From positions 1 through 33,343 of the forward strand of contig QMIW01000043.1 of assembly GCA_024434165.1 (NCBI GenBank): DNA of 33,343 nucleotides, written 5' to 3'. The position numbers and the translations under genes were made by a program. A model generated the notes under the pieces. It did not search any database. It was not told the origin of the DNA and saw nothing but the letters and a program-made list of their open reading frames with translations. Below, piece by piece: positions 6,232-28,249 of this stretch (positions are counted from its first letter, which is position 1; every line of letters starts with the position of its first letter). Source of the DNA: Chloroflexota bacterium. GTDB lineage: Bacteria > Chloroflexota > Anaerolineae > Anaerolineales > Villigracilaceae.

Positions 6232-7875
6232 TTATTCCACCGGAATTTCGGACTGCACCTTGCTCAGGTCAATGCCCTTGCTCTTGCGGTAGGACTTGAA
6301 CCCGAAGTAGATGAGCGCGGCAAGCAGGTAGTTGACGCCCATGAAGATCAGCGATGTGCCGTTCTTGTAGCCGTTTTCGTTGATGCTATAGCCGATGCCG
6401 TACAGGGCGTTCGGGTCGAGAATCCACTGGTACAGCAGGAAGACCAGGAACCCGCCGAAGATGACGCCCGCCACTGTGATCAACGGGATGCCGAGGATGT
6501 TGTACTTGGCAATCGGCGAGGACTTGTACAGATCCGGCTTGGTGTAAGGCAGGATGATCGCGGAAATGGTCGTGCCGAGGAAGGTCACGGCAATGACCAG
6601 CGTGGAGCACAGCGTCAACGAAGCGAAACTGAACAGGTTGTAGTTGAACAGGTACGCCACCACCACCGACGGAACCACCATCAACAACAGCGCGTTGACC
6701 GGCGTGCCGGTGCGCTCGTCCAGTTTTGCGACCGACTCGGGCAGAAGGCGGTCGAACGCGGCGGCGAAGATGACGCGCGTGGACGAGAGGAATACGGTTC
6801 CGCTCCAGCCGAACCACCACAGGCTCATCAGCGCCACGACCACAAACTGGAGGAGTTTGTTGGTGGTCAGGAACGAAGCGAGCAAAGCCGGATAGGGCCA
6901 GACGGGCAGCGCGGGCGCCACATCGGTGAGACCCCAGGCGTAATTCCACCACGCCGCGCCAGCCTGCACGTAGAACTCCCATCCCATCGTTTTGCGAATG
7001 GCAAAGAGCAGGATGATTCCCAGCAGGGTGGTGATGCCGAGCGCCCAGCCCATGCCCGCCATGTTGCGTTTGAAATCGGTCGCGCCGCGCACTTCACCGT
7101 AGAGCGTTGCGCCCCAGTTGGGCCACAAGTTGAAGAAGACCATGTAGGGAATGACAAGGAAGACCGCCGCCAGCGCCCCGCCCGCAAACGGCGTAACCGC
7201 GCCTGCGGCTGCGCCGAGTTCGACAGTCGCATCGTAAACGCCGCTCACCCCAAACATGGCGGCTGCATTCTCTTCCAAGCCCGCCTTGAAGGTTTCGGGC
7301 GTGCCCATCAACAGCATGACCACGACGATGAGCAGTCCCAGCATCCCGCCGTAGAAGGAGACCTTCTGAATGCGCGCATAGGTCTTCATGCCGAGCATGA
7401 TGAAGAGGCTGACGATGGCAAGCGTGAGGATCGAAGCGGTGAACGCGCCGTTCTGTGTCCCCGCGAACCACAGCGCCGCATCCTTCAAGCCCAGCACACC
7501 CAGGATGGGAACCAGCACGATGTGCCGGAACATATCGCCATAGAGCGGCACCCACAACCACAGGATGAACCACCACCCCGTCACCGCCAGGACGAACCCG
7601 ACCCCCCCGCCGAGGATGCGGCTCTGCCAGACGTAATCGCCGCCGGAACGGGGCATCACAGCGATCAACGCGGCATACACCACCACCTCAAAGAAGATGA
7701 AGATCGCGCTGACGATCAACGCATTCACCATACCGCCCTCGAAGTAATACATCTGGCTGAAACTGTATAGACCGAGGGTGATCAGGTTGATGGAGAACAA
7801 CGCGTAGATGAACGCGTCGAAGACCGACCAGGAACGCACCAGGCCGGTCGCCTTACGGACAAACAAGTTGCTCAT
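6232..7875 (-). CDS. APC-superfamily amino acid permease
   Basis: 547 residues with about 12-13 hydrophobic segments. The N-terminal region (WSVFDAFIYALFSINL, then YAALIAVMPRSGGDYVWQSRILGG) matches the first helices and the conserved PRSGGDYV loop of APC transporters. LDERTGTPVNALLL after the middle helices is also typical of AA_permease_2 members. The role is uptake of amino acids or related amines across the cytoplasmic membrane; the substrate cannot be read from sequence. The ATG at 7873-7875 has GAGGAGAG about 6 bp upstream. A palindromic repeat separates it from the upstream phosphoesterase gene. A tryptophanase gene lies nearby on the other strand, but a functional link is only a guess. 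Confidence 0.88.
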   Translation of the reverse strand: MSNLFVRKATGLVRSWSVFDAFIYALFSINLITLGLYSFSQMYYFEGGMVNALIVSAIFIFFEVVVYAALIAVMPRSGGDYVWQSRILGGGVGFVLAVTGWWFILWLWVPLYGDMFRHIVLVPILGVLGLKDAALWFAGTQNGAFTASILTLAIVSLFIMLGMKTYARIQKVSFYGGMLGLLIVVVMLLMGTPETFKAGLEENAAAMFGVSGVYDATVELGAAAGAVTPFAGGALAAVFLVIPYMVFFNLWPNWGATLYGEVRGATDFKRNMAGMGWALGITTLLGIILLFAIRKTMGWEFYVQAGAAWWNYAWGLTDVAPALPVWPYPALLASFLTTNKLLQFVVVALMSLWWFGWSGTVFLSSTRVIFAAAFDRLLPESVAKLDERTGTPVNALLLMVVPSVVVAYLFNYNLFSFASLTLCSTLVIAVTFLGTTISAIILPYTKPDLYKSSPIAKYNILGIPLITVAGVIFGGFLVFLLYQWILDPNALYGIGYSINENGYKNGTSLIFMGVNYLLAALIYFGFKSYRKSKGIDLSKVQSEIPVE

Positions 7876-7900: not shown

Positions 7901-7947
7901 CCCTCACCCCTTGCCCCTCTCCCTGAGGGAGAGCGGTTGGGGTGAGG
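7901..7947. repeat. Palindromic repeat, family A copy 2 (complete)
   Basis: Outer arms CCTCACCCC (7902-7910) and GGGGTGAGG (7939-7947) enclose an inner stem CTCTCCC/GGGAGAG (7917-7923/7927-7933) with a 3-nt loop. It lies between the phosphoesterase and permease genes. It shares sequence and folding pattern with 27413-27460 and, in part, 3871-3908. Confidence 0.8.
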
Positions 7948-7951
7948 AAAT

Positions 7952-8893
7952 TTAACCTGTCGTCAAAACGTAATCTTCCACCTTTTTCTTTCCAAGCCGT
8001 ATCAACGCGCCCAGCAAAGTTCCCTGCTCATACATCGAACCGGGGTTGATGCAGAGCGTCTTGCCAATGCGTGAAACGCCGCGCCCCTCATGGATGTGTC
8101 CGTGAAGCCCAAGCAGAGGCTGGCTTGCTTCGATGACTTCGCGCACAGCCGTCGAGCCGACCGCCTTCAACGCCTGCCCCGCCATTTTGGGACGCAGGTT
8201 TTCGTCCAGTTCCGGCGCTTCATCCAGGTTCGATTTATACGGCGGCACATGGATGTTGAAGACGGCATTGTGCGGATCCTTGAGTTGGGAGATCATCGCC
8301 TCATACCGGACTTTGAGCTGGTCCTCGTCCTCTTCACGGTGCGTATCCCAGGGTGTCCGGTTGGACCAGCCCGAAGCGATCATTTCGTGACCGCTGTTCA
8401 GGGTTGTGACCTTCCCCTCCGCCAGCACCACGTTTTTGCTCGCGCGGATGATCTCGTCCACTTCGTCCATGTCGTCGTTGCCCGGACAGCAGTAGACCTT
8501 CATGCCTGTACCGTCCAGTTTTTTATCCGCCAGTTCCATCCACTGCTGAACGACCTTGAGCACTTCCTGCAAAAAGATTTTGCCTACACGCTCCGGGTCT
8601 TTCTCCAACTCGGCGATTTCGTCTGGATTCGTCAAATATGGGTAGTAACCGCGGCTGCGGACGCGCTTTTTCAGGTCTGTCAGTTCGTCTTCGTTCGTAA
8701 TATCAAACACCTGTTCCAGCAAAGTGACGCGGTAATTCGCTCCGCCCTGATGAATGAACGGGACCACCGCCTTGCCCGTCATATCCCCGCCGAGGATCAG
8801 TTGATCCGCGTTGTAGAACTTCCCCGCATTCAAAAACTTGCTCCAGCAAATATCCGACCCGTGAATGTCTGTGGCAAAAAATATCGTGGTCAC
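7952..8893 (-). CDS. Calcineurin-like metallophosphoesterase
   Basis: 313 residues with the full metallophosphoesterase motif set: DIH (D9, H11), GGD (35-37), CPGNDD, NIHVPPY and GHIHEGRG. These residues bind two metals for hydrolysis of phosphoesters. The substrate is unknown and a cytoplasmic location is likely. I chose the GTG at 8891-8893 (MTTIFFATDIHG) because AAGGA lies about 7 bp upstream. A TTG two codons earlier would sit almost on that site. It is followed after 76 bp by the permease gene, separated by a palindromic repeat. Confidence 0.88.
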   Translation of the reverse strand: MTTIFFATDIHGSDICWSKFLNAGKFYNADQLILGGDMTGKAVVPFIHQGGANYRVTLLEQVFDITNEDELTDLKKRVRSRGYYPYLTNPDEIAELEKDPERVGKIFLQEVLKVVQQWMELADKKLDGTGMKVYCCPGNDDMDEVDEIIRASKNVVLAEGKVTTLNSGHEMIASGWSNRTPWDTHREEDEDQLKVRYEAMISQLKDPHNAVFNIHVPPYKSNLDEAPELDENLRPKMAGQALKAVGSTAVREVIEASQPLLGLHGHIHEGRGVSRIGKTLCINPGSMYEQGTLLGALIRLGKKKVEDYVLTTG

Positions 8894-9070
8894 ATGCAAA
8901 TCCTTCTGTGCTGAGGTTTTCCAGCACGGCGCTGGGTGGCTTGCAGAGGAGGTGCGGAATTTGGGTTAATTATACCTCCCGGAAATGGGATTGCAACCGC
9001 CTCCCCATACGAATTTCGAGCATGCCATTTTCCAATCTGCCGCTGCTCATTGCACAATCTATAAAGGATG

Positions 9071-11005: not shown

Positions 11006-11557
11006 ATGAAACTGCACCCCTTCCTCCTCACATTCATCCTTCTTGCCTCCGCTTGTTCTCTCCTATCAACAGCACAGCCAACGGCAGCCTCAGCAACCCA
11101 GCCCGTAGAACAAGTCAACGCAACCCCAACACAAACCCCAACCTCAATCGCAAAAACGCCGGAGATTCCAGATCGTCCCAGGTACATTCTCGACACCGTT
11201 GTCAACTACGACCTGCACAGCATCAACGTCGTTGAAACCATTCAATACCCAAATCACACCGGGCAGGAACTTGCTTCCCTCACGCTCGCCATCGCCGCCA
11301 ACCTTTGGACGGATTGTTTCCGGCTTTCCGAAGCAGCGGTGGATGGGATCCCTGTGATGGACTACGCACTCCGCCTGCACCGCCTCGACCTCCCGCTTCC
11401 GACTCCGCTCGCGCCTGATTCCGTTTCGACGCTGACTCTTCGCTACAGCCTTTCCCTCCCCTACATGGACCAGGTCAACAGCCAGCGGGCGCGCCAGTTG
11501 GCGTCGCTGTTGGAATGGGAGGGGTTCCTTCCTGCGCAGACACAGATGGCAGGGTGA
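11006..11557 (+). pseudogene. Lipoprotein with an M1-peptidase-like N-terminal domain, apparently truncated
   Basis: 183 residues from ATG at 11006. It has a lipoprotein signal (LLASAC), then a Thr/Pro/Gln-rich linker. A domain follows starting RYILDTVVNYDLHSINVVETIQYPNHTG and reaching LTLRYSLSLPY. That pattern resembles the N-terminal beta domain of M1-type metallopeptidase lipoproteins, which normally continue for several hundred residues with an HExxH domain. Here the frame stops after about 20 unrelated residues, and base composition becomes AT-richer at the same point. I infer loss of the catalytic part at the border of the accessory region. A short stand-alone lipoprotein is the alternative. 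Confidence 0.55.
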
Positions 11558-20391: not shown

Positions 20392-20423
20392 CAACGGATG
20401 GTCATGAAAGTGACCATCCGTTG
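20392..20423. terminator. 13-bp hairpin between convergent genes
   Basis: 20392-20404 and 20411-20423 are perfect inverted repeats with a 6-nt loop. The hairpin covers the last codons of the MalT-like gene and lies 14 bp after the CPBP stop codon. It lacks a long T-tract on either strand, but its position suggests a shared transcript end. Confidence 0.55.
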
Positions 20424-23047
20424 AATAGCCCGAATTCGCGCGCTTTGGCTGCCGCTTTGACCCTGTCATCCACGCTCAGCTTGCCATAGATATGTTTGAC
20501 GTGCGTCTTGACCGTCCCCACCGAAAGGACAAGTTTCTCGGCGATCTCAGGGTTCGACAGCCCTTCGGCGATCAACTTCAAGACCTCGATCTCGCGCTCG
20601 GTCAACGGTTCGATCAAACTGGATTGATCTATGTGCGCAGGCATGCCAAATGCCGCCAGCAGGTCAGCCACAAAATCATCCTTGTGTGCTTTCTGAATCT
20701 GGGAGAGAAGATTTTTCATCCCTTCGCCTTCATCGAGAAAGACGCGCACGTAGCCGTTCGCCTTGCCAATCTCCAAGGCGCGTTCAAGCGTTTTGAGGGC
20801 AGCGGATGACTTGCCCGCCTCCTGCTCCATCAGGGCATGGACGATGTGCAGTTCCATCTCGTATTCGACGTACCCCGCTTCCCGCGCCAGCCGAACCTGC
20901 TCCTCCACCAGACGGCGAGCCTCATCCCAAGCCTTTTGCCGCGCCAAATAGCGGACTCGCAGCACCGTCTGCAAACGATAGGGGAAAAACAGTGGCTGCT
21001 GCGGCGGGCGATACGTCCGCGCGTACAAATCGAACGCCGCCCAGTCCTTGAGCCTGAACATCAACTCGGCTTGCAATCCACGGGCGCGGTCAATGGCATT
21101 GACGATTCCGCCGCGGTTGATATTTGCGACCAGGTCATCCGCCATTTTGCGCGCTGAATCAACATTGCCATTCAAATATTCCAATTTGGGAAGGAGGGCA
21201 TATAAACGCAGGCTGACATCGGGCACGCCGCCCGTCTGTCCTTCCAACTCAAGGGTGATGTTTGCTTCGCGCCATGCCGATTTCAGGTCATTGGTCTCGT
21301 ACATCAACTGTGCCTGATTGATATGCGCCCATCCGCGTACCAGCGCGGGTGCGCTCTGACGCTCGAGCGTTGCGAGCAGTTGACGGTTCAGGGAGATGGC
21401 GCGCTGCAAATCGCCGCACTCCCGCACCACTTGCACCCGCGCGCACTCGGCGATCCAGGCTGTGGTCAGGTCGCCTGCCGCGCGGCAAAGTTGAATTGTT
21501 TCGTTGTAAGCCCTCTCGGCTTTTTCGAGACCCAGCCCCATCGAATGTGCCGAAGCGGCAATATTTAATTGGGCAAACCCGCGCCAGAGCAAATCCTGTT
21601 CGGCAAGCTGCTGCAATGCCTGCTCTGCAAGCAATAACGCGCCAGGCGAGTCATTGCTGCCTGCGCGGGCGAAATAACTGCGAATGATCTGAAAACGCCC
21701 GCGGGCATGGCTGGCTTGCGGCTCGTCCTTTAAGTTTCCTTCGGCGCGTTCAAGCAGGGGCAGAATGCGGGCGCTGTCATAGCCAAGCCAGAACCATGTC
21801 CATGCCAGGAAGGCGGTTAAGCTGGGATGTTCCGCAAGGATGGCTTCTGGCAGGGATTCGATCCGTTTGACCAGCCCGCGGATTTCCGCATGTCCCCATG
21901 CCTGTCCAAGCGCATCTTCGATAAGCACGGCGACACGATCTGGATTATTCGCCGCGATCCAATGACGGATGGCGTCAAGCAGGCAATTATTTTTCTCGAA
22001 CCATTCCGCAGCGCGGCGGTGCAGGTCGGCGGTTTGGCTTGAAGCGCGGCGTTTGAGCAGATCGGCAAAAAGATGATGATAGCGATACCAATTCGATTCA
22101 GAGTCGAGCGGGATGATGAACAGGTTGGCGCGTTCCAATTCCGCCAGCATGGATTCGGACTGGTCACTCTGCAGAACATGATCGCACAACGAGGCGTTGA
22201 AGCGCTCCAATATGGAAGTCTTCAGCAGGAATTCGCGCAAAGCCTCAGGCTGGCGCGAGAGCACTTCATCTGTGAGATAGTCTGCCACGTAGCGATGACT
22301 GCCCGCAAACGCGGAAATGACTTCGCTGGGGTTGGATGATTTTTGCAGGGAAAGCGCGGCAAGCTGCAAGCCTGCCACCCATCCTTCAGTGCGCGCTTCC
22401 AACGTGCGAATGTCTTCGGCGCTCAACGAAAGCCCCATCGTTTGGTTGAGGAACTGCGCGGCTTCGTCCTCGGTGAAGCGCAAATCGTCGGCGCGGATCT
22501 CGGTCAATTGTCCGCGCACGCGCCAACGTCCGAGCGGGAGCGGCGGGTCGGCGCGGCTGATGAAGACGAGGTGGATGCTGCTGGGGAGATGGTCTATCAG
22601 ATAGGCAGCCGCATCATGGATGGGCTGCTGGGTGATGTGATGATAATCATCCAATACCAGGACAACGCTTTTGCTGGAAAACTCAGAGAGGTCGTTGAGG
22701 AGGGCAACGGTCAACTCGCGGGGATTGGCGGAACCCGCTTCCAGCGAAGAGTCAAGCGTCGAAACGGAATCAGGCTCAACGGTCCGCAGGGAAGCGGCGA
22801 TATAAGCGAAAAAGCGACTCGGTTCATTGTCGTCTTCATCCAATGAATACCAGGCAACTTTTATGTTTTGTGAAGTTGCAAGCCAGGCAGAGAGCAATGT
22901 CGTCTTACCAAACCCAGGCGGCGCGGAAATGATGATCAGCCTGCCGTTCAAACCAGTTTGTATTCGTGCGGTCAATCTCTGACGGGGAACACATCCTTCT
23001 GTCGGGAGCGGCGGGTACAGTTTCGTCGGCAAAATTGGGAGCAGCAT
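20402..23047 (-). CDS. MalT/LuxR-type ATP-dependent transcriptional regulator 1
   Basis: 881 residues. A STAND-type NTPase domain carries Walker A in APPGFGKTT (about residues 42-50) and VLVLDDYHHI as Walker B. Helical repeats follow, then a C-terminal LuxR helix-turn-helix (PLTEREIEVLKLIAEGLSNPEIAEKLVLSVGTVKTHVKHIYGKL). Such regulators bind an inducer and ATP, then oligomerise on target promoters. I chose ATG at 23045-23047 (MLLPILPTKLYPP) because a TATAAT ends 7 bp upstream, implying a leaderless mRNA. A second ATG eight codons earlier would lie upstream of that -10 box. Confidence 0.9.
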   Translation of the reverse strand: MLLPILPTKLYPPLPTEGCVPRQRLTARIQTGLNGRLIIISAPPGFGKTTLLSAWLATSQNIKVAWYSLDEDDNEPSRFFAYIAASLRTVEPDSVSTLDSSLEAGSANPRELTVALLNDLSEFSSKSVVLVLDDYHHITQQPIHDAAAYLIDHLPSSIHLVFISRADPPLPLGRWRVRGQLTEIRADDLRFTEDEAAQFLNQTMGLSLSAEDIRTLEARTEGWVAGLQLAALSLQKSSNPSEVISAFAGSHRYVADYLTDEVLSRQPEALREFLLKTSILERFNASLCDHVLQSDQSESMLAELERANLFIIPLDSESNWYRYHHLFADLLKRRASSQTADLHRRAAEWFEKNNCLLDAIRHWIAANNPDRVAVLIEDALGQAWGHAEIRGLVKRIESLPEAILAEHPSLTAFLAWTWFWLGYDSARILPLLERAEGNLKDEPQASHARGRFQIIRSYFARAGSNDSPGALLLAEQALQQLAEQDLLWRGFAQLNIAASAHSMGLGLEKAERAYNETIQLCRAAGDLTTAWIAECARVQVVRECGDLQRAISLNRQLLATLERQSAPALVRGWAHINQAQLMYETNDLKSAWREANITLELEGQTGGVPDVSLRLYALLPKLEYLNGNVDSARKMADDLVANINRGGIVNAIDRARGLQAELMFRLKDWAAFDLYARTYRPPQQPLFFPYRLQTVLRVRYLARQKAWDEARRLVEEQVRLAREAGYVEYEMELHIVHALMEQEAGKSSAALKTLERALEIGKANGYVRVFLDEGEGMKNLLSQIQKAHKDDFVADLLAAFGMPAHIDQSSLIEPLTEREIEVLKLIAEGLSNPEIAEKLVLSVGTVKTHVKHIYGKLSVDDRVKAAAKAREFGLFNGWSLS

Positions 23048-23054
23048 GCACGCA

Positions 23055-23060
23055 ATTATA
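23055..23060 (-). promoter_or_regulatory. -10 box for a leaderless MalT-like mRNA (regulator 1)
   Basis: TATAAT, then 7 nt (TGCGTGC), then the start codon. The expected transcription start falls on or beside the ATG. The word TATAATTGCGT is shared with regulator 2 (27645-27650). Confidence 0.55.
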
Positions 23061-23101
23061 AAGGCTAACATTCTCAGTCGTTGGCGCGGTTGCTCGGAAA
23101 T

Positions 23102-24926: not shown

Positions 24927-27638
24927 TTAGAGCAAGCCCAACTCGCGGGCGCGGGCAACCGCCTCGGTGCGGTTCTCGACTTGCAGTTTGTTGAAGATGC
25001 GCAGGTTGTGCCCCTTGACCGTGCTGAGCGCCAGATACAGCCGCTGACCGATCTCTGTGTTGGAATGTCCCGCGGCAATGAGACGCAGGATTTCGATTTC
25101 ACGGTTGGTGAGAGGCTCAACGATTTCAGATTTACGATTTTGGATTTTAGATTGAAAAATGATTTCCGCTGATTGCGGGAAAAAATTCAAAATGCGGTCA
25201 ACATACCGAAGCAAGGGATGAGCGGGGGACTTCGCCCTCAGATCAGAAAGCAGCGAACGCATCGCTTCACCCTCATTCACGAAAATGCGGATGTAGCCCT
25301 CAGGCTCAGCCAGTATCAGTGCGCGTTCCAGTGCGGAAAGGGCTTGGGGATGATTGCCCTGTGCCTGATGAACAAGCGCTTGCGTCAACAGGATTTCGAT
25401 TACGCTCCCCATCCGCTTTTGCGATTCAGCCAAAGCCAGCAGGCGTTCGAGCATTTCATGGACCCCAGCAAAGGAACCTTCGGCTAGACATACCCGCGCC
25501 AACGTGAGATGTTCGTACTCGCCCAGATAACTCGCTTCATCCTTGACCGAGAGGCTGCGTTCCCGCGCCCAAGCCTGAGCCTTGTCCAAGCGGCCTTGTC
25601 TGAGATGGATGCGCGCCTTGTGAGCCGCGATCGGATGAAAGATGGGGATCGGGTTTTTGACGTAGCCTCTCTGGGCGTCGTCCAAAGATTGGAGGGCAGA
25701 ATCAAATTCCCCGTCCGATTCTTTGAGGCGGGCCTGCGCGAGATTCCAACGATGAGTCCAATCCACCAGAGTTGTGCGCTGACCCAAGTCCGCGGCAATT
25801 TCCAGAGACTGGGCGGACGCGGCGTTATCGCCCCGTTCATGCGCAAGCATTGCCAATTCCAAGTGATGATGCGCGGTAATGGTTTCAGACTCCCGTCCAT
25901 GCGCGGCGGCTTGTTGGATGGCGTGCCGGAGGGACTTTTCGGCATCATTCAGGCGACCCAATATCACCTGCATATCCGCCACGGCAAAGGCGCTGGCAAT
26001 TGCAAACTCCTGTTTGCCCAATCTTTGCATGTCTTCGATCCAGGCATGAATGGCGCGGAGGGATGATTCCAGATTGCCGGTTACCCAATGGGTAAACCCC
26101 AGTGTGATGGCGGCTTCGGCGCGATGGAAAACATCGTCCTCGGGCATGAGCGGAATGGACAGTTCGGCGTATTTAATTGTTTCCGCCAGGTTGCCTTGTA
26201 TCTGGGCATTATTGGACCGAATCAGGGCAATGATCGCCAGCAGGGATTTTGACTCATCGCGCTCCAGCGCGTCAGCCAATGCGCGCTCGGCGTTTTGCAG
26301 GTAGGTTTCGCTCGACTCCACTTCTCCAGCATCTGAATAAGCCCGCCCAAGCGAGACACATAATCTGGGACGGGAGCAAACTACCGCATTAGGCAGTTTC
26401 TTCACCCAGCCAATCCAAGCGGCGGTCTGGAAATTGCGTTCCATGCCCTGCCAAGCCGCTTCGGCCAGATTTGCCGACCGCTCAAAATCGCCAGCCGCGA
26501 GGGCATGGTGGAAGGCTTGCGCCAGGTCGGCGTTCGCCTCATACCACACGCTGGCGCGCAGATGATATTCGGGAAGTTCACGCGGTTGGCCGAGTCGCTG
26601 ACGCAGCAAATCGCCGAACAAGTGGTGATAGCGATACCAACGCCGTTCATTATCCAATGGGACAATGAACAGGTTCGCGCGTTCGAGCTGTTCCAGAATC
26701 TCCTGCCCCGATGTGGAAGGGTCGAGCAGGACGGCGTCACATAGCGGACCGCACATACGGTCAAGAATCGAAGTGCGCAACAGGAAGGTTTGAATCTCTT
26801 CTGATTGCTGTCCCAAAACCTCTTCGATCAGATAATCAAGCACAAAACGATGACTGCCCGTAAAGGACTTGACAAAACTGGCGGCGTCTTGATGTCCCTG
26901 CATCGAAAGCGCCGCCAATTGCAGACCGGCGATCCAGCCTTCGGTGCGGGACTCCAGCGCGGCAATATCTCCATTGGATAGATTCAGTCCCATCACGCGG
27001 TTGAGGAACTCGGTCGCTTCGGCGGCGGTGAACTGCAAATCGGCGGCGCGCAGTTCGGTCAGTTGACCGCGAGCGCGCAGGCGAGCCAGTGGCAGGGACG
27101 GGTCTTCGCGCGCGGTGATGACCAGGTGCATCTGCGGCGGCAGGCGCTCGACCAGAAAGGCGAGGGCTTCGTCCACGGATTTGGAATCAACCACGTGGTA
27201 GTCGTCAAGGATGAGGAGAAATGGATCGGGAATGGAAGAAATTTCATTGAGTAGAGCCGTCAAAGCAATTTCGACTTGCGGCTGCTGGCGAGATTGGAGC
27301 GTTTGCAATATCCCCTCGCCAAGTCCCGCCTTGATGGTCTGCAACGCTGCGATCAGGTACGCGATGAAGCGGACTGGGTCTTTGTCCCCTTCGTCCAAGG
27401 ATAGCCACGCAACCCTCACCCCTTCTTCTCTCCCTGCGGGAGAGGGGTTAGAGGTGAGGGCAGCAATCCATTCGCTGATCAATGTAGTTTTGCCAAATCC
27501 AGCCGAAGCGGAGATGAGCGTCAGTCTGCGACCCATCGCCAGCCCCTCGTTCATCCGCTCGATCAGGCGCGGGCGGAGGACGATTTTAGACCGCGGCGCT
27601 GGGATATACAGCTTTGTGGCGAGGATTTGCGCAGGCAC
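24927..27638 (-). CDS. MalT/LuxR-type ATP-dependent transcriptional regulator 2, with in-frame repeat insertions
   Basis: 903 residues, paralogous to the regulator at 20402-23047. Walker A is in SAGFGKTTLI (about residues 45-54), LLILDDYHVV is Walker B, and helical repeats follow. The C-terminal LuxR domain is PLTNREIEILRLIAAGHSNTEIGQRLYLALSTVKGHNLRIFNKL. I chose GTG at 27636-27638 because TATAAT ends 6 bp upstream and the protein then starts with the paralogue's PAQILATKLYIP pattern. Two oddities are seen: a 48-bp palindrome encodes about residues 60-76 (SNPSPAGREEG), and the linker before the LuxR domain (QSKIQNRKSEI) comes from AT-rich repeated DNA. The frame stays open through both. Confidence 0.9.
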   Translation of the reverse strand: MPAQILATKLYIPAPRSKIVLRPRLIERMNEGLAMGRRLTLISASAGFGKTTLISEWIAALTSNPSPAGREEGVRVAWLSLDEGDKDPVRFIAYLIAALQTIKAGLGEGILQTLQSRQQPQVEIALTALLNEISSIPDPFLLILDDYHVVDSKSVDEALAFLVERLPPQMHLVITAREDPSLPLARLRARGQLTELRAADLQFTAAEATEFLNRVMGLNLSNGDIAALESRTEGWIAGLQLAALSMQGHQDAASFVKSFTGSHRFVLDYLIEEVLGQQSEEIQTFLLRTSILDRMCGPLCDAVLLDPSTSGQEILEQLERANLFIVPLDNERRWYRYHHLFGDLLRQRLGQPRELPEYHLRASVWYEANADLAQAFHHALAAGDFERSANLAEAAWQGMERNFQTAAWIGWVKKLPNAVVCSRPRLCVSLGRAYSDAGEVESSETYLQNAERALADALERDESKSLLAIIALIRSNNAQIQGNLAETIKYAELSIPLMPEDDVFHRAEAAITLGFTHWVTGNLESSLRAIHAWIEDMQRLGKQEFAIASAFAVADMQVILGRLNDAEKSLRHAIQQAAAHGRESETITAHHHLELAMLAHERGDNAASAQSLEIAADLGQRTTLVDWTHRWNLAQARLKESDGEFDSALQSLDDAQRGYVKNPIPIFHPIAAHKARIHLRQGRLDKAQAWARERSLSVKDEASYLGEYEHLTLARVCLAEGSFAGVHEMLERLLALAESQKRMGSVIEILLTQALVHQAQGNHPQALSALERALILAEPEGYIRIFVNEGEAMRSLLSDLRAKSPAHPLLRYVDRILNFFPQSAEIIFQSKIQNRKSEIVEPLTNREIEILRLIAAGHSNTEIGQRLYLALSTVKGHNLRIFNKLQVENRTEAVARARELGLL
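25122..25154. repeat. AT-rich repeated word inside MalT-like gene 2
   Basis: Near-tandem GATTT(C/A/T)-type units of about 8-11 bp. In the gene frame they encode QSKIQNRKSEI, in the linker just before the LuxR domain. Regulator 1 has a shorter, different linker there. Confidence 0.55.
27413..27460. repeat. Palindromic repeat, family A copy 3, in frame inside a coding sequence
   Basis: Outer arms CCCTCACC (27413-27420) / GGTGAGGG (27453-27460) and inner stem CTCTCCC (27428-27434) / GGGAGAG (27438-27444) match the intergenic copy at 7901-7947. Its length, 48 bp, is a multiple of three, and it keeps the MalT-like frame open. Confidence 0.85.
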
Positions 27639-27644
27639 AACGCA

Positions 27645-27650
27645 ATTATA
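27645..27650 (-). promoter_or_regulatory. -10 box for a leaderless MalT-like mRNA (regulator 2)
   Basis: TATAAT, then 6 nt (TGCGTT), then GTG. It has the same arrangement as regulator 1. No good -35 hexamer is visible. Confidence 0.5.
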
Positions 27651-28249
27651 AGCATGTCCGCAAAACTTGGTGGACGCAGTTCTTTTGATAATGTGCATGC
27701 AAAGGTTGTCAGCGGCTGCGCTCCAGCCGCCGTTCGCCGGTGGGTGCAGGTGAGACGCAGTACCTATTCTGGGCGTAAATAATCCCCGGCGGCGTTTTGC
27801 GAGGGGATCCTACGCCGGGGAAAGCGCCATTATGCCCAGAATGGGTACGAAGTGGTACGGCGCAGGGAGCAAACTGTCTGACATGTTTTGCGTACAGACC
27901 GACCATTTTGGGAAACATTCAAATTCTGTAGAATCAAGCCGCAAGAATATGCGCGTAAAAAAACCGTTTCTGCATGGCTAAAAACGGGCTGCTGTTGCTG
28001 CATAGTCGTTTCATATAGGACAAAACTCCAAAAACAAGAATAGAGTTCCCTATATTGGAAAATACTCGTTTACGGGTATCCACCGCAGATTTCACAGACG
28101 ATCATGTCCCATTCTCCTGCTACCAAAATTATCCGCGCGATCTGCCTTTCTGTCATCGTCAATCCGACTTAAATGGACATCCAACTTTCGTCGGATGCCA
28201 AATCTGGGAATGGAAAGCGGGAACATGGATTCCTCCCTTCATGGACTTA
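27651..28249. other. 600-bp intergenic stretch with hairpins, no convincing gene
   Basis: The sequence between regulator 2 and the membrane protein gene at 28250 has a small hairpin (27712-27718/27724-27730), the long palindrome at 27761-27847, and AT-richer DNA after 27950. Short open frames are present, but none has a ribosome-binding site or recognisable domain. Confidence 0.5.
27761..27847. repeat. 87-bp imperfect palindrome
   Basis: The arms beginning TACCTATTCTGGGC (27761-27774) and ending GCCCAGAATGGGTA (27834-27847) are inverted with one mismatch. A second inner pair, TCCCCGGCG (27783-27791) and CGCCGGGGA (27813-27821), is perfect. The whole could fold as a long stem or cruciform. 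It is unlike families A and B. Confidence 0.7.

Follow-up and report, generated by a model that had tools for sequence, protein, structure and literature searches.

The locus and its palindromic segment

We describe here a 48-nt nested palindrome that lies in frame within a gene for a MalT-like regulator on a 33,343-nt contig (QMIW01000043.1 of assembly GCA_024434165.1) of a Chloroflexota bacterium of the family Villigracilaceae. This whole stretch is called the window below; it is contig C116 of genome G000, which is itself one of a genus set of 57 genomes. An earlier note, made from the letters of the window alone, had proposed that the segment is a mobile element tolerated within the regulator, and the sequence, the predicted fold and the open reading frame (ORF) agree on the in-frame palindrome. 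The features concerned are as follows.

24927..27698, minus strand: MalT-like regulator of 923 aa (STAND NTPase, TPR, LuxR-type helix-turn-helix), bearer of the element (ORF, Pfam, match to the MalT structure)
27413..27460, minus strand (the gene strand): 48-nt nested palindrome forming 16 codons in frame (sequence and fold)
27413..27422, unstranded: left outer arm, 10 nt, pairs with 27451-27460 (sequence, fold)
27425..27434, unstranded: left inner arm, pairs with 27438-27447 around a 3-nt loop at 27435-27437 (sequence, fold)
27438..27447, unstranded: right inner arm (sequence, fold)
27451..27460, unstranded: right outer arm (sequence, fold)
20402..23071, minus strand: paralogous MalT-like regulator of 889 aa whose loop at the element site is of the ordinary short kind (ORF, Pfam)
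7901..7948, minus strand: second element copy, intergenic, with two mismatches to the element pattern

The segment at 27413-27460 is laid out as outer arm, linker, inner arm, 3-nt loop, inner arm, linker and outer arm, and its predicted fold is a pair of stacked stems. As DNA, the interval 27405-27470 folds with a z of -3.85 (none of 200 shuffles equally stable), and the 48-mer alone with a z of -2.88 (2 of 200). The linkers are unequal, at 2 nt and 3 nt, and through them the orientation of a copy can be read; in the window copy this asymmetry is antisense to the gene, which we call orientation A. The second copy is intergenic, as the earlier note had it, and lies between the minus-strand ORFs 6232-7875 and 7952-8899, 25 nt before the start codon of the former. 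Rfam gave no matches at gathering score over the whole window.

The host gene matches TPR_MalT (3.7e-53) and GerE (7.7e-16) in Pfam and the Escherichia coli MalT structure 8bob (6e-56), and the element codes approximately codons 80 to 95 (A-LTSNPSPAGREEGVR). Alignment to 8bob places the extra residues after the Walker A helix (GKTTLISQW) and before the strand WYSLDE. An AlphaFold model of residues 1 to 482, modest in quality (mean pLDDT of 67, five sequences) and used for the local loop alone, has a helix at 70-81, a strand at 95-100 and a loop at 84-91 with pLDDT below 50. The element thus occupies a loop, and the NTPase motifs are uninterrupted. At the same site the paralogue reads ATSQNIKVAW and is shorter by the ten residues that had been estimated. 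The canonical loop of the genus spans 15 residues from GKT to WLSLD and the element-bearing loop 26; because the gain is 11 residues, the 48-nt element replaces about five canonical codons and is not a simple addition. The gene is under purifying constraint, with a ratio of nonsynonymous to synonymous substitution (dN/dS) of 0.18-0.20 against three relatives.

Two further repeats touch these regulators. A low-complexity, repeat-like string (CAATCTAAAATCCAAAATCGTAAATCTGAAATCG) at 25121-25154 on the minus strand encodes the linker that precedes the LuxR-type helix-turn-helix (FQSKIQNRKSEIV), and is possibly a second repeat-derived insert in the same regulator. A perfect 21-nt inverted repeat pair, 11413-11433 and 22755-22775, spans 11.3 kb and has one arm within the paralogous regulator.

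Presence and absence among MalT-like relatives

In the genus set, 7 of 89 extracted proteins bear the element: the window's own (L009), three from one genome (L010, L072 and L081, all G011), two from another (L013 and L067, G051) and one from G019 (L014). A family-wide search added L152 to L154 (all G115), L155, L156, L157, L158, L159 and L160, giving 16 genes in 11 genomes, all at one codon site; this search of 152 genomes was probed with an insert-bearing query, and the 16 bearers are not a rate. A protein was obtained from 109 of the 110 MalT-like loci. The insertion suggested by the earlier note is therefore present in this regulator but is not private to the gene or the species.

The relatives L011, L012 and L015, at 71-75% identity, lack the element and read IAECGKPAAWLSLDE or similar at the site, which together with the dN/dS of the bearer bears out the idea of a tolerated in-frame insertion. 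Bearer loops have 26 residues, apart from two left-shortened versions with 22 and 23. None of the 109 proteins has the same peptide without the palindrome, and in L010, whose palindrome has decayed but is still in frame, the peptide has drifted along with it. At the element site L017 and L018 have different inserts, palindrome-like by eye. In two further MalT-like genes (G047:C1:3149661-3152462 and G007:C2:2458153-2459951) the query matched in two adjacent pieces, which suggests that these genes are split or frame-shifted.

Orientation A is found in five of the bearers (L009, L014, L067, L156 and L157) and orientation B in 11, at the same codon site. In a tree built without the loop, which kept 64 of the 109 proteins (short proteins and those with other loop lengths were dropped, and the four rows with other inserts stood outside the tally), the 16 bearers are scattered and require at least 11 changes of presence, or 13 with orientation counted, a count that is blind to gain versus loss. 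A single clade of bearers is rejected (p-AU 1.2e-60).

A dispersed element within and between genes

The general pattern of the element is CCCTCACCCC-NN-CCCCTCTCCC-NNN-GGGAGAGGGG-NNN-GGGGTGAGGG, and its commonest form, CCCTCACCCC AA CCCCTCTCCC NNN GGGAGAGGGG CAA GGGGTGAGGG, is free of stops in two of three frames in either orientation. Copies resident in MalT-like genes mostly have a TT left linker and a (C/T)TA or CCA right linker. Chance does not account for the abundance of the element in the 4.4-Mb draft genome G000: when up to one mismatch is allowed, the inner hairpin CTCTCCCNNNGGGAGAG occurs 176 times, and the reversed pattern used as control occurs not once, there or in any other genome listed. 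On several G000 contigs, inner hairpins with a GAT or ATC loop lie 5-80 nt into the contig, as if the assembly had been interrupted there by a longer composite repeat whose copies are near-identical.

An exact-pattern scan of 84,980 species genomes, which possibly did not cover the records of the window's own genome, found 72 exact copies, 71 in Chloroflexota records and one in Planctomycetota; viral contigs of IMG/VR held no exact copies. Of these 72 copies, 45 lie in frame within recognized genes and 27 are intergenic or unassigned. Recognition rests on a Pfam match of the ORF, tested under its own or another locus id of the same place, for 32 genes, on the MalT-like alignment for three, on blastp to a tested ORF for nine and on inspection of the longer locus L206 for one (L247). 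Overall, 54 of the 60 ORFs submitted matched Pfam at 1e-6, including 29 of 30 in a first set of long ORFs running through copies; L270 and L283, among the 27 outside recognized genes, are open ORFs with no Pfam match.

Hosts in the census include ThyX, TrpC, HemD, GlyS and MetH. The further in-gene copies that the earlier note had called for thus number dozens, in the window's own genome and in relatives. Among 18 copies in G000 with inspected surroundings (BLAST matches to the in-gene copy plus the two of the window), 12 lie in Pfam-recognized genes. The hosts in this genome are valyl-tRNA synthetase (ValRS; two copies), TrpC, an ABC transporter, CinA, a lipoate ligase family protein, a GATase_5 protein, carbon monoxide dehydrogenase/acetyl-CoA synthase (CODH/ACS), a radical SAM protein, an FAD/Fe-S oxidoreductase and a type I restriction specificity subunit. 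Relatives carry copies in MetH, ThyX, GlyS, SecA, a Mur ligase, AroK-AroB, an HdrA-like protein and others; the names MiaB-like, HdrA-like, AroK-AroB and RAYT-like, where used, were read from Pfam matches or motifs. ValRS is a single gene in nearly all of the 56 genomes with a match, out of the 57 of the genus. The insert falls within one Pfam domain in TrpC (L194), CinA (L044), LplA (L048), GATase_5 (L055), GlyS (L218) and HemD (L237).

Recurrent loops, reading phase and possible inversion in place

The same loops are used repeatedly, and by other repeats as well. Element-derived residues occur in 14 of 29 TrpC loci, the rest mostly reading FLAAIKRRRFG..LIAELKRASP (locus L383 was left out for a pattern mismatch), in the ThyX linker of 8 of 30 loci, and in two ValRS loops in 7 of 30 and 5 of 30 loci, with other repeat-like peptides elsewhere. 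For TrpC the best 30 of 84 places were taken and for ThyX the best 30 of 57, both found with queries that carried the element, and the loop assignments in all three families, like the foreign-repeat labels (those of L017 and L018 included), were made by eye. Other ThyX loci have tandem or palindromic strings in the linker, such as ACCACAGAG...CTCTGTGGT, or GTCAGTG repeats. To judge from the sequences, these loops look like sinks for short repeats in general. Pairs of ThyX genes have a dN/dS of 0.07-0.08.

Several observations on these hosts stand beside the census. In L391 and L399 a different palindrome, like ACCACAGAG...CTCTGTGGT, lies in frame in the same ThyX loop. ThyX of the genus is about 480 aa long with two Thy1 stretches, approximately double the length of the ThyX chains listed with solved structures. 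The own TrpC of G000 (L047:1451-1500, minus strand, contig C121) has the element near its N terminus and an element-like peptide, RVPSPSGRGVG, at its C terminus, where a second copy (G000:C121:6847-6877) may supply the C terminus and the stop.

For 44 of the gene copies the reading phase could be assigned: 26 are read in sense phase 1, 11 in antisense phase 1, five in sense phase 2 and two in antisense phase 2. Phase 1 yields the peptide LTPxPxPxGxGxGVR and the alternative phase PHPxPxSxxxRGxGEG. The excess of phase 1 could come from selection on the peptide or from a preferred junction.

Both orientations occur at one junction in several gene families. The element of ThyX L236 (equal to L386, X-) is the exact reverse complement of that in L291 (equal to L385, X+), with identical flanking letters, in genes of 86% DNA identity. 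TrpC L368 and L377 have both orientations at the same junctions, and ABC transporters L269 and L286, whose proteins are 90% identical, have both orientations with the same left junction and a right side that is 12 nt longer in L286. The MalT-like genes repeat this at their one codon site. Opposite orientations may have arisen by inversion in place, the simpler possibility, or by two insertions that hit one and the same nucleotide position. An inverted 48-nt element keeps the reading phase and should therefore cost the protein little.

Well-formed copies look young and not maintained, since the inserts of deep paralogues within one genome can far surpass their genes in identity and stems show no compensatory excess. 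Insert and gene-wide identities are 96% versus 61% for L153 and L154 and 93% versus 53% for L072 and L081; inserts are 76-81% identical in two pairs with the decayed L010 and 55% in L013 and L067, which have opposite orientations. Among 143 copies with at most nine substitutions, a set that possibly includes the same place twice, five of 322 off-consensus pairs were complementary by double change, against a shuffle mean of 3.8 and maximum of 10.

A probable selfish element tolerated in protein loops

We think it quite probable that a dispersed, selfish element of 48 nt has left a copy here, tolerated in the NTPase loop and read as some 16 flexible residues with no dedicated function. In this model insertions would hit genes irrespective of function, those that stop or break the protein or fall in a rigid part would be purged, and the survivors would lie in loops and in linkers between domains. 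A length of 48 nt and, in the commonest form, two stop-free frames out of three in either orientation allow the element to survive in genes. Its spread and flipping, the least certain part of the model, may proceed by template switching during replication or by recombination at the palindrome, perhaps with some copying between paralogous genes and presumably not by a Y1/RAYT transposase (RAYT, the type associated with repetitive extragenic palindromes, or REPs); template switching at the palindrome combined with copying between paralogues is our best remaining guess.

Several points weigh against this account. Translation of the segment is something we infer from open frames. The 72 exact copies are not independent, many being at a shared gene site, and in some genes (e.g., L039, L050, L051, L054 and L230) the Pfam domains lie beside the insert and not across it. 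None of the 44 framed gene copies is in the TGA-bearing phase, a zero that is partly by construction, since an ORF had to run open across the element to be recognized as a gene. Among the remaining 27 copies, L239, L285 and L287 have the element in its stop phase, flanked on both sides by stop-free stretches of more than 60 codons, and could be genes that it cuts short; several more are frame-shifted across the element, at a broken gene or a gene boundary. The 37:7 skew between the open phases goes beyond neutrality alone and is not explained by it. No target-site duplication was found around the 72 copies, direct repeats at their ends numbering four of length 2 (5.2 by shuffling), two of length 3 (1.5) and none of lengths 4 to 8. 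Finally, 33 neighborhoods of Y1_Tnp matches (105 kb), the best of more than 150 places listed, contained three with an element part, against approximately 4.2 expected from the hairpin density of G000 alone. Hence the description of the element as mobile holds insofar as its distribution implies movement; the signs of a conventional mover, a target duplication or an associated Y1 transposase, did not accompany it.

A bolder version of the model, offered tentatively, would make the element a transposase-free, four-arm, triplex-type palindrome that copies and inverts itself within genes by template switching, with loops of the MalT-like NTPase, ThyX, TrpC and ValRS serving in this bacterial family as exchange ports where unrelated short repeats take each other's place over evolution, a steady source of new in-frame peptide loops for essential enzymes.

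Alternative explanations

The alternative that we take most seriously, while doubting that it is correct, is that a loop allele was copied among MalT-like paralogues by gene conversion or lateral transfer, and not inserted repeatedly. Paralogues within a genome do share a version (L152, L153 and L154 in G115; L072 and L081 in G011), and the flanks of L153 and L154 are more alike than those of 96% of control pairs of similar gene divergence. The flank excess is nevertheless weak elsewhere: for the other same-genome pairs in range, the flank identity was reached by 15%, 11% and 17% of controls, and the between-genome pair L072 and L154 is equally high. The two G051 paralogues have opposite orientations, and copying among MalT-like genes does not cover the other gene families.

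Movement as a REP by a RAYT or other Y1 transposase would suit a palindromic, dispersed element, and Y1_Tnp matches are present in 54 of the 57 genus genomes; in view of the neighborhood counts we consider it unlikely. No GTAG/CGTC tag or other conserved tetranucleotide was found within 12 nt on either side of the 72 copies, whose flanks show weak biases (two of the 72 have G at -3, 56 have a purine at +2 and 53 have one at +3) that possibly reflect a target preference or the edge of a longer element. One RAYT-like Y1 transposase ORF (L061:1459-2331, minus strand, at approximately 27.8 kb on G000 contig C101) lies directly downstream of a metH-like ORF, with a cluster of element copies some 2 kb away.

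It is similarly unlikely that the palindrome is kept for a function in DNA or RNA, such as triplex formation, pausing or attenuation, or as an adaptive peptide loop. The recurrence of the same loops across genera and the favoring of one phase in 37 of 44 copies would be expected of a kept function, but stems are not maintained by compensatory change, the decayed L010 is still in frame, unrelated repeats occupy the same ThyX and ValRS loops, and most MalT-like homologues do without the element.

Less plausible again is one ancient insertion in a MalT-like ancestor, followed by vertical inheritance with many losses or erosions. Most MalT copies do share TT and NTA/CCA linkers, a variant that is less frequent in other hosts (six of the 72 exact copies have TT, and two of those six are MalT copies), and 14 of the 16 inserts show the same length gain. 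Against this, the bearers form no clade and imply at least 11 changes, their orientation changed at least five times, and the inserts of deep paralogues are far more alike than their genes; with no upkeep of pairing (5 versus 3.8), decay of the kind seen in L010 would be expected of old copies. Chance G/C-rich coding sequence or an assembly artifact is hardly credible: the sources are nearly all draft, mostly metagenome, assemblies and hairpins are often at contig ends, but the reversed pattern is absent from all genomes listed, the same gene sites recur in records of different isolates and projects, and the single-contig genome G042 carries the ThyX copy.

Comparison with known systems

We found no report of protein-resident copies of this element in Chloroflexota in the open-licence literature on coding palindromes, REPs and in-frame repeats. 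The palindromes described as entering proteins are mainly those of Rickettsia, with Wolbachia and a few others (as cited in PMC2229807). A different and much shorter element would here enter proteins on a large scale, in housekeeping enzymes of environmental Chloroflexota, where many species can be compared. This makes it testable where proteins tolerate 16 foreign residues, whether such loops gain function, and how a repeat with no transposase in evidence moves and flips. In practice, such inserts also interfere with the alignment, gene modelling and assembly of these genomes.

The G/C-rich intrastrand triplex motif TMECO (Holder et al. 2015; PMC4666352) has the form CCCTCNCCC-loop-GGGNGAGGG-loop-GGGNGAGGG, the rule being a C-stem, a loop of 3 to 6, a G-stem, a loop of 3 and a G-stem, with the letters CCCTCNCCC/GGGNGAGGG. 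Reported from 262 genomes of Proteobacteria, it is said to have 23 copies in E. coli MG1655, every one of them intergenic. Read on the element with 9-nt stems, the pattern leaves a second spacer of 5 and fails literally; with 10-nt stems the spacer is 3 and the pattern fits, and on that reading three of the four arms follow the motif (CCCCTCTCCC-NNN-GGGAGAGGGG-NNN-GGGGTGAGGG). Unlike TMECO, the element has a fourth arm, CCCTCACCCC, that makes the motif readable on both strands, and unlike TMECO in E. coli it has 45 of its 72 exact copies in genes. On its letters, the element resembles an intrastrand-triplex repeat, the fold computed here being that of a duplex hairpin alone, and this suggests that a triplex-type repeat, studied as intergenic in E. 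coli, can live inside genes.

REPs with GTAG/CGTC tags are mostly intergenic but have also been reported inside ORFs, including those of tRNA synthetase and repair genes, and at about the same recB site in two Xanthomonas species; GTAG repeats occur also in Chloroflexi (PMC3733652). The element is likewise a short palindromic repeat inside ORFs, but it has no tag, is mostly genic among its exact copies and shows no Y1 link. The ERIC/RU elements that are fused in frame with genes (Delihas 2007; PMC2759123) measure 103-168 bp and are enterobacterial; compared by description only, they too are small mobile sequences with open frames within genes.

In how it exists within genomes, the element parallels the Rickettsia palindromic elements (RPEs; Ogata et al. 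2000), which are described as lying between genes and in frame within conserved genes, with lengths of 105-146 bp and restricted to Rickettsia (PMC2229807). Tolerated insertion is the reading given for RPEs there, with guanylate kinase as the example. Like RPEs, the element described here lies in frame in conserved protein genes (the 45 of 72) as well as between genes. It differs from RPEs, known here by description, in being 48 nt long and G/C-rich, in belonging to Chloroflexota and in occurring in both orientations at one junction. On this comparison, the element is best read as akin to RPEs in idea but as a representative of another sequence family.

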